60,876 nt of DNA from the NCBI GenBank assembly GCA_028376655.1, contig JAONAZ010000005.1:1-60876 (forward strand). The letters run 5' to 3'. A model generated the notes under the pieces. It did not search any database, had not been told where the DNA came from, and saw only the letters and a list, made by a program, of their open reading frames with translations. This document shows positions 6,253 through 8,279 of this stretch, one piece after another (positions within the stretch are counted from its first letter, which is position 1; each line of letters starts with the position of its first letter). Origin of the DNA: Acidimicrobiia bacterium (GTDB taxonomy: Bacteria > Actinomycetota > Acidimicrobiia > Actinomarinales > Actinomarinaceae). The translations under genes and the position numbers were made by a program.

Positions 6253-6765
6253 GTGGGTAATATAAATACTCACAAGACCTTAATATTAAATTCTACCTTC
6301 CAGCCGCTTTCTCTAGCAACACCACAACGCGCTCTAGCACTTTTATTTAGTAGAAAAATAAATGTACTAAAAGAATCAAATATAAATTTACGATCTGTTG
6401 AACAATCTTTCTTTATACCTAAAGTTGCGGCCCTAACTTATTATGTAAAAGCTCCATACGCAAGGAGAGTGGCTCTAAACAGAGAAAATATTTTTATAAG
6501 AGATTCTTATATTTGCCAATATTGTGGCGTCGATGCAGAGTCAATAGACCACATAGTACCTAAATCTAAGGGCGGCTTACACGATTGGAGTAATGTGGTT
6601 GCATGTTGTAAGAAATGTAATCTTTTAAAAGCTGACAAGCAATTAAGTAAAACTATTTTAAATCTTCAAAAAAATCCTACTGTTCCAGAGGGAAACTTCT
6701 GGATCAAAACAATAATTGGAAACAATCCAGACCCTGACTGGAAAGAGTATTTAATACTCACATAA
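6253..6765 (+). CDS. HNH endonuclease family protein
   Basis: LILNSTFQPLSLATPQRALALLFSRKINVL; CQYCG...IDHIVPKSKGGLHDWSNVVACCKKCN HNH motif. Confidence 0.88.
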   Translation: MGNINTHKTLILNSTFQPLSLATPQRALALLFSRKINVLKESNINLRSVEQSFFIPKVAALTYYVKAPYARRVALNRENIFIRDSYICQYCGVDAESIDHIVPKSKGGLHDWSNVVACCKKCNLLKADKQLSKTILNLQKNPTVPEGNFWIKTIIGNNPDPDWKEYLILT

Positions 6766-6779
6766 ATTTTTTTCTGTTT

Positions 6780-6829
6780 TGTGTTGCGTGATGTCACAAA
6801 GTGTCATATAATGTCATAGAGTGGTTCAA
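6780..6829 (+). promoter_or_regulatory. MraZ-type operator: five 10-bp direct repeats with in-phase TG
   Basis: TGTGTTGCGT / GATGTCACAA / AGTGTCATAT / AATGTCATAG / AGTGGTTCAA; three perfect TGTCA at 6792, 6802, 6812. Confidence 0.75.
6784..6812 (+). promoter_or_regulatory. Sigma70-type promoter for mraZ/dcw operon
   Basis: TTGCGT (6784-6789), 17-bp spacer, TATAAT (6807-6812). Confidence 0.7.
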
Positions 6830-6848
6830 GGCACGAAAGGCGGAAAAA

Positions 6849-7274
6849 GTGTTCCTTGGTGAATATAAACATACAATGGATTCGAAGGGTAGAGTAGTTA
6901 TTCCTTCTAAGTTCAGGAAAGAGCTTCAACAGGGCTGTGTAGTTACTAAGGGACTTGATAACTGTTTACAAATTCTTACAAAAAAAAACTGGAATCAAGA
7001 ATCAGAAAAGATGGCCTCTTTGCCTTCCACAGATAAAACATCCAGACAATTAAGAAGAGCTCTATTTTCTGGTGCAGTAGATTCTTCATTAGATTCTGCT
7101 GGAAGAATTCAGATACCTGAAAACCTAAGAGCATACAGTGCTATCAGTGAAAATGATGATGTAACAGTTACAGGATCCGGCCCAGTGATAGAAATTTGGG
7201 CAACTAAAACTTGGAAGAAGATTCAAAGCGATTCTGATAATGCATTTGCAAACATTAACGAAGTGAAAGGATAA
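6849..7274 (+). CDS. mraZ: Transcriptional regulator MraZ (start corrected from 6801)
   Basis: FLGEYKHTMDSKGRVVIPSKFRKEL and DSAGRIQIPENLR (two AbrB-like repeats); GTG at 6849 preceded by AAAGGCGG. The 6801 start lies inside the promoter/operator. Confidence 0.9.
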   Translation: MFLGEYKHTMDSKGRVVIPSKFRKELQQGCVVTKGLDNCLQILTKKNWNQESEKMASLPSTDKTSRQLRRALFSGAVDSSLDSAGRIQIPENLRAYSAISENDDVTVTGSGPVIEIWATKTWKKIQSDSDNAFANINEVKG

Positions 7275-7282
7275 GTTCATAG

Positions 7283-7359
7283 CCAGCTCTCTAGACAACT
7301 AAATTGGAATACCCTTACTCCGCCCAACTTTCCAATTGGTGCCAGTTCTAGAGAGCTGG
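7283..7359 (+). repeat. Nested inverted repeat between mraZ and rsmH
   Basis: CCAGCTCTCTAGA (7283-7295) is perfectly complementary to TCTAGAGAGCTGG (7347-7359); inner AATTGGAA (7302-7309) with TTCCAATT (7330-7337). Confidence 0.9.
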
Positions 7360-7361
7360 GT

Positions 7362-8279
7362 ATGAATACAAACAGGGCAGGGTATTTACCACACAGTGGT
7401 GTAATGGTTGAAGAACTTACTTCAATTGTTGAAGCACTTCCAAAAGGAGTATTCATCGATGCTACATATGGTTATGGCTCACATTTTAAAGTATTAAAAC
7501 AATTTGATAATTTAGAGTTGATTGGTTTTGATAGAGACAATGAAGCAATCGCAGCAAAAAGTGAAAATGACCATGTTATTAAATTAAACTTTTCAGAAAT
7601 ACCAAATTTTCTAACTCAAAATAATTTAAATCGTATTAGTGGGATTTTTTATGATTTTGGCTTGTCTTCACATCAGATTGATTCTTCAGAAAGAGGTTTT
7701 TCATTTCAGCAGAATGCTGATTTAGACATGAGAATGGATAAAGAACATAACTTAACTGCAAAGAAAGTAATAAATGAATATTCCAAAGATGAATTATTAA
7801 ATATTTTTAATAACTTTAGCGAAGAAAAATACGCTTATCAAATTACAAAAAAAATTATTGAACTTCGACCAATCGATACAACTTTAGATTTAGTTAATTT
7901 AATCAAAGATGCACTTCCAAGACAAAATCCAATTTTTACAACAAAAACAATAAGAAAAATATTTCAAGGTTTGAGGATTGAAGTTAATAATGAGTTATCA
8001 GAGATCGAAACTTCACTAAGGGAAATAAAAAATCATTTAGATACAGACGGGGCGATTGTGTGTATTTCATATCATTCTCTAGAAGATAAAATTGTCAAAG
8101 CATTTATGACTGATCTAACAGTTAGTTGTATTTGTGACCCTAAAGCTCCCATATGTATTTGTGCCACTGAACAAGAATTTAGGTACCACAAAAAAAAGAA
8201 ATACACACCAAGCCCTGAAGAAAAATCACTTAATCCAAGATCAAAGTCAGCAATTATGAGATGTGTAATTAAATTATGA
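7362..8279 (+). CDS. rsmH: 16S rRNA (cytosine1402-N4)-methyltransferase RsmH (MraW)
   Basis: YLPHSGVMVEEL, FIDATYGYGSH, GIFYDFGLSSHQIDSSERGFSFQ, DMRMD, SYHSLEDKIVK. Confidence 0.95.
   Translation: MNTNRAGYLPHSGVMVEELTSIVEALPKGVFIDATYGYGSHFKVLKQFDNLELIGFDRDNEAIAAKSENDHVIKLNFSEIPNFLTQNNLNRISGIFYDFGLSSHQIDSSERGFSFQQNADLDMRMDKEHNLTAKKVINEYSKDELLNIFNNFSEEKYAYQITKKIIELRPIDTTLDLVNLIKDALPRQNPIFTTKTIRKIFQGLRIEVNNELSEIETSLREIKNHLDTDGAIVCISYHSLEDKIVKAFMTDLTVSCICDPKAPICICATEQEFRYHKKKKYTPSPEEKSLNPRSKSAIMRCVIKL

Follow-up and report, generated by a model that had tools for sequence, protein, structure and literature searches.

The spacer between mraZ and rsmH in the analyzed DNA forms a conserved RNA hairpin that locks the rsmH start codon in a long stem. 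The DNA, referred to as the window, is a stretch of 60,876 nucleotides from a very small marine member of the Acidimicrobiia. Based on sequence comparison and folding models, we propose that the hairpin is a cis-regulatory RNA, probably a counterpart of the mraW RNA of other Actinomycetota, and that it acts here as a translational gate with a trans-factor at its loop. We put the probability of this reading at about 0.6. Gene order at the start of the dcw cluster ranks among the best conserved in bacteria, yet to our knowledge post-transcriptional control at this point is hardly known. In the literature searched, no tested function for the mraW RNA was found.

Structure of the mraZ-rsmH spacer

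Between the stop codon of mraZ and the ATG of rsmH the spacer measures 87 nt (Table 1). It is conspicuous, as a sequence-only reading of this DNA had already remarked, because spacers between genes in the order have a median length of only 2–3 bp (PMC7771536). Folding yielded a minimum free energy of -40.9 kcal/mol as compared with -22.6 ± 3.4 kcal/mol for dinucleotide shuffles (z = -5.4; none of 200 shuffles was as good). The outer stem is built up from two 20-nt arms (7276–7295 and 7347–7366) with a single G-G mismatch, and the rsmH start codon is paired with CAU (7278–7280) within it. The sequence-only reading had described an outer stem of 13 bp (7283–7295/7347–7359) and an inner stem of 8 bp (7302–7309/7330–7337). 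Both are present, the former as part of the larger stem that takes in the rsmH ATG. The same reading had named AGAGAG as the only SD-like stretch, which is correct within the spacer; AAAGGA at the end of mraZ (7266–7271) is SD-like as well. The idea that the hairpin brings this AAAGGA close to the ATG was discarded as a conserved mechanism, with AAAGGT, AAAGAA and AAATAA found in relatives.

Table 1. Features of the mraZ-rsmH junction in the window.
Feature	Position	Strand	Basis and remarks
mraZ	6849..7274	+	Likely start GTG 6849, which we take to be the start from the MraZ N-terminal motif; stop TAA 7272–7274 directly 5' of the hairpin; ORF 6801–7274
Whole structured element	7275..7367	+	Folding; 85 of 92 positions invariant in 37 genus genomes
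Outer stem, 5' arm	7275..7295	+	CAT 7278–7280 pairs with the start codon; class-wide covariation of the stem
Inner stem, 5' arm	7298..7309	+	Folding
Terminal loop UACCCUUACUCCGCCCAACU	7310..7329	+	Folding; C-rich
Loop core ACUCCGCCC, near-invariant	7317..7325	+	CCGCCC at 7320–7325; loop comparison among members
Inner stem, 3' arm	7330..7340	+	Folding
GGTGCCAG side, partly unpaired	7338..7346	+	Conserved G-Y-GCCAG of the compact subtype
Outer stem, 3' arm	7347..7367	+	Carries SD-like AGAGAG (7350–7355) and the start codon
rsmH (16S rRNA m4C1402 methyltransferase)	7362..8279	+	ATG 7362–7364 paired in the stem

An intrinsic terminator, consisting of a G+C-rich stem and a subsequent T-run, was ruled out: there is no T-tract 3' of the stem and a terminator scan of the region revealed no terminator, in agreement with the earlier statement that the hairpin is not a classic one. 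An Rfam search of the window and of class members yielded no family matching the element; the matches obtained in the window were of the miRNA type and were dismissed as chance. Directly upstream of mraZ the window contains a small HNH-endonuclease-like gene (6253–6765).

Conservation in the genus and across the class

In a search of relatives, the same spacer was found to precede rsmH in most genomes of the genus. A comparison of 37 "Ca. Actinomarina" genomes resulted in a mean pairwise identity of 98.8% for the element. The flanking genes of the same genomes share 79% (MraZ) and 60% (N-terminal part of RsmH) amino-acid identity, and identity at third codon positions amounts to only 57% in mraZ and 53% in rsmH. 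Where the element is missing from a genus genome, an rsmH match is mostly missing too, so that incomplete assemblies are the likely reason for its absence.

Several other explanations of the spacer were rejected on the basis of these comparisons. A protein-coding leader is ruled out by a conservation pattern that does not track codons. A repeat or mobile element is ruled out as well, since a DNA search of the genomes returned nothing that stands out other than the single copy of the element itself. The genome searches, with a completeness of only 79% for genome G000, returned no long complementary match indicative of an antisense partner in trans. Prompted by an 87-nt spacer that is open in frame, bypassing or readthrough of the T4 gene 60 type and an rsmH start farther upstream were also considered. 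All of these were rejected, since the distance between the two genes is not kept: it is 87 nt in most genomes of the genus, 86 nt in one (L095) and widely variable in the class. A pseudoknot between the loop and rsmH codons (AATACCCT/AGGGTATT) was discarded, as the pairing is not preserved in relatives.

For a wider comparison, 22 spacers from other families were chosen by the position of rsmH alone; 16 of them have the same architecture with different stem sequences. In an alignment of 19 diverse members, two-sided changes occur in 17 of 31 pairs and 92.2% of the cells are paired, as compared with 36–56% in slid controls; none of 500 shuffles reached the covariation score. Compensatory base changes thus support the stem, as is characteristic of a conserved cis-regulatory RNA. 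According to the sequence-only reading, the hairpin is a post-transcriptional element acting in cis that hides the ribosome binding site of rsmH in its 3' arm, and homologues without compensatory changes would refute this proposal. It survived that comparison, with two-sided changes found across the class, and is well supported by the covariation, the position of the start codon and the cost of opening it (see below).

A covariance model (R1) matched 223 of 296 class genomes (E ≤ 1). A second model (R2), describing a three-way-junction subtype with two-sided changes in 17 of 32 pairs, matched 185 of the 296 (E ≤ 0.01). Counting the genomes named in the two match lists, both models together cover about 240 of the 296 Acidimicrobiia genomes. 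Outside the class, a search with R1 in a phylum sample of 347 genomes gave only four marginal matches (E 0.2–0.9), and 40 mraZ-rsmH regions, nearly all from other classes, contained no such element in their spacers except for mraW-type ones. The element is therefore conserved between mraZ and rsmH across the class, in most of its genomes, and not convincingly elsewhere in the phylum.

Four genomes of families f3 and f11 (L062, L067, L072 and L082) lack the element, and their mraZ and rsmH genes overlap or are separated by no more than about 20 nt. Other f3 genomes retain it, and the absences appear to be losses. The full element was also found on contigs labeled Armatimonadetes or Acidobacteria (L248, L205 and L222), which are probably mislabeled or misbinned Acidimicrobiia. 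A genome of another class (L161, family f51) contains a different long hairpin, GTCGGCTGAAGC/GCTTCAGCCGAC, between mraZ and rsmH, with GGGCGGGG in the loop region.

The near-invariant loop ACUCCGCCC(G) is common to both subtypes. In the compact subtype, to which the window belongs, the outer stem measures about 20 bp, the loop of the inner stem has the form CCC-(0–3 nt)-ACUCCGCCC(G), and the stretch G-Y-GCCAG is found 3' of the inner stem. In compact members with a start codon found, the ATG or GTG of rsmH mostly follows CCGCCC at a distance of 41 or 43 nt; the distance is 42 nt in the window and 35–38 nt in three other compact members. This codon is part of the stem and is immediately preceded by a G-rich, SD-like stretch; its predicted opening cost is mostly 27–45 kcal/mol. 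Members of the three-way-junction subtype share the first loop and have, in addition, a second hairpin carrying a conserved GGRGAGAMAWCC motif. Here, the first in-frame start is within the stem in 6 of 34 members and otherwise mostly 40–60 nt downstream. Burial of the rsmH start thus applies to compact members, including the window, and usually not to three-way-junction members; for this reason it cannot on its own be the conserved function. Pairing would be possible between the GGAG of GGRGAGAMAWCC and CUCC in the first loop (L147, L148, L152, L292-L321 and other R2 loci).

One tally of the loops includes loci that were found by the loop pattern, and the other loop comparisons are the fairer basis. 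Since conservation of the loop exceeds any pairing need, we infer that it is contacted by a trans-factor or takes part in a tertiary contact.

Proposed gate and candidate trans-factors

According to the folding calculations, opening the region from -18 to +6 around the rsmH start requires 24.3 kcal/mol, the highest value of the 43 gene starts in the window (next 14.1, median 7.9 kcal/mol). When the 5' arm was blocked up to 7284–7286, in imitation of what a ribosome at the mraZ stop might do, the opening cost of rsmH dropped from 26.6 to about 15 kcal/mol. Because the cost ranks first and is reduced in this way, a translational gate that is eased by translation of mraZ is the best reading for the window member.

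We propose the following mechanism. Folding and covariation show that the long stem encloses both the SD-like sequence and the start codon of rsmH, so that initiation by free ribosomes should be poor. Ribosomes that reach the end of mraZ, where the stop codon directly adjoins the stem, would melt the 5' arm and, judging from the calculated energies, lower the barrier. A trans-factor would dock at the near-invariant loop and tip the equilibrium between the closed and the open state. RsmH, acting on its own message, is a candidate for this factor. In the genus the mraZ stop codon abuts the stem, so rsmH translation may depend on mraZ translation; this suggests coupling rather than the uncoupling of mraZ from the rest of the operon that had been put forward earlier. 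The geometry of this coupling is not conserved in the class, as the mraZ stop lies anywhere between about 1 and some 40 nt from the stem.

The candidate trans-factor leads to the first alternative, autogenous repression by substrate mimicry, in which RsmH would bind the loop sequence ACUCCGCCCG and stabilize the closed hairpin on its own mRNA. We regard this as a tentative and rather unlikely reading. The element sits on rsmH itself, and the loop core ACUCCGCCCG matches the RsmH target ACACCGCCCG around C1402 in 9 of 10 positions. Nowhere else in the 16S rRNA of the genome does the 10-mer match as well, and for shuffled 10-mers the probability of an equally good match at the RsmH site is 0.0025 (mononucleotide shuffles) to 0.045 (dinucleotide shuffles). 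For whole loops, however, P is 0.01–0.2, other 10-mers of the element likewise match 16S rRNA in 9 of 10 positions, and the hypothesis was framed after the sequence had been seen. A further likeness, of GGUGCCAG to helix 18 of 16S rRNA, is absent in some members and was treated as chance. Strict 16S mimicry is weakened by the loops of divergent members: the U at which they depart from 16S rRNA is retained in 20 of 20, whereas positions shared with it vary (A in 8 of 20, G in 15 of 20). The 'all' set of this loop comparison contains a few loops picked wrongly, from reverse-strand matches. For METTL15, the human homologue, binding to short h44 RNAs has a Kd of about 1–2 µM, but its RNA binding shows no sequence preference (PMC10828496), and catalysis by RsmH requires the 30S subunit, not naked 16S rRNA (PMC5053481). 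In view of the divergent loops, the 30S requirement and the non-specificity of METTL15, and with statistics that are modest, we retain autogenous control by RsmH as a candidate only and not as a conclusion.

Alternatively, the hairpin could be a processing site, at which RNase III or another nuclease splits the mraZ mRNA from the downstream dcw mRNA and control is exerted via mRNA stability. Such a site would suit members with the start codon outside the stem, it would lie between the same two cistrons in both subtypes, and a long stem with small interruptions has a stability that might suit RNase III. Processing has no need, however, for an invariant loop or for the degree of sequence conservation seen in the genus (98.8%), and the start codon within the stem of compact members would have to be a coincidence. 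We therefore consider this explanation unlikely.

Sensing of the ribosome state would provide feedback without binding of RsmH: with its start in a stem, rsmH would need C1402-methylated ribosomes for translation. This is in line with observations in B. subtilis, where mRNAs with a stem-loop over their early codons respond to MraW/RsmH status and need MraW-modified ribosomes (PMC13317604, preprint), and the rsmH start is the most occluded one in the window. On the other hand, strengthening the stem abolished translation in B. subtilis (PMC13317604). The near-invariant loop would be left without explanation, as would the three-way-junction subtype with its start usually outside the stem. Taken together, this makes the idea quite improbable. 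A metabolite-binding riboswitch, responding for example to S-adenosylmethionine or a cell-wall precursor and controlling rsmH and the following genes, is very unlikely: there is a conserved structure with a conserved loop ahead of an operon, and the related mraW RNA is listed as cis-regulatory with a '?' for riboswitch (PMC2864571), but the compact subtype is a simple long hairpin with one short conserved loop, and Rfam riboswitch models gave no match in the window at E ≤ 10 and no credible one in relatives.

The translational gate thus remains our preferred reading for the window member. The class-wide occurrence of the element in two subtypes, with a near-invariant loop and, in compact members, a start locked in the stem, offers concrete, testable mutants. 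Should the loop factor be RsmH, ribosome modification would be linked to the expression of the cell-division and wall cluster. The furthest-reaching version, a class-wide RNA operator in which RsmH reads its own message via a loop resembling its 16S target and of which the mraW RNA is a cousin, is doubtful on the present sequence comparisons. If this were true, an rRNA methyltransferase would be regulating itself through RNA mimicry, and the mraW RNA would have its explanation.

Comparison with the mraW RNA and other known systems

The closest known relative in position and shape is the mraW RNA (RF01746; Weinberg et al. 2010, PMC2864571), which is likewise located between mraZ and rsmH (mraW) in Actinomycetota and is listed as cis-regulatory. 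It shares with the element a long outer stem, an inner stem and a short, C-rich terminal loop with a conserved core. This core is ACUUCCCC in the mraW RNA and ACUCCGCCC in most members described here, a difference of one transition and one extra G; a divergent class member (L324) has the loop ACUUCGCCC. In the mraW RNA the rsmH start is downstream of the stem, as it usually is in the three-way-junction subtype, whereas in the compact subtype it lies in the stem. The mraW RNA has been reported from Actinomycetales only (PMC2864571), the present element is from Acidimicrobiia. One actinomycete mraW RNA (L199) has an ATG in the 3' arm of the stem that opens a short frame, with a TGA overlapping the ATG of rsmH (ATGA), possibly a coupled upstream ORF.

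With the RF01746 model, neither the window region nor any of 18 class loci was matched at E ≤ 10. At its gathering cut-off (50 bits) none of the class genomes tested passed, while seven other Actinomycetota genomes and one control did. Conversely, R1 and R2 gave 15–20 bits at the expected position of some mraW loci, less than the 26–28 bits obtained on an unrelated hairpin; these cross-searches are thus weak and unspecific. We judge the element to be a variant of the mraW kind and not a member of RF01746; common descent of the two is likely but unproven.

Autogenous leaders of ribosomal-protein genes, such as mycobacterial rpsO (PMC8470358), are similar in that a leader structure, possibly resembling the rRNA target, precedes a ribosome-related gene. 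In our element this likeness to rRNA is a short sequence resemblance of modest statistical weight. The MraW-dependent mRNAs of B. subtilis (PMC13317604) carry short stem-loops at the starts of other genes (cmpA, isp) and not ahead of mraW/rsmH. With the element they have in common that the start region is locked in a stem, and for cmpA translation is tied to methylation of C1402.
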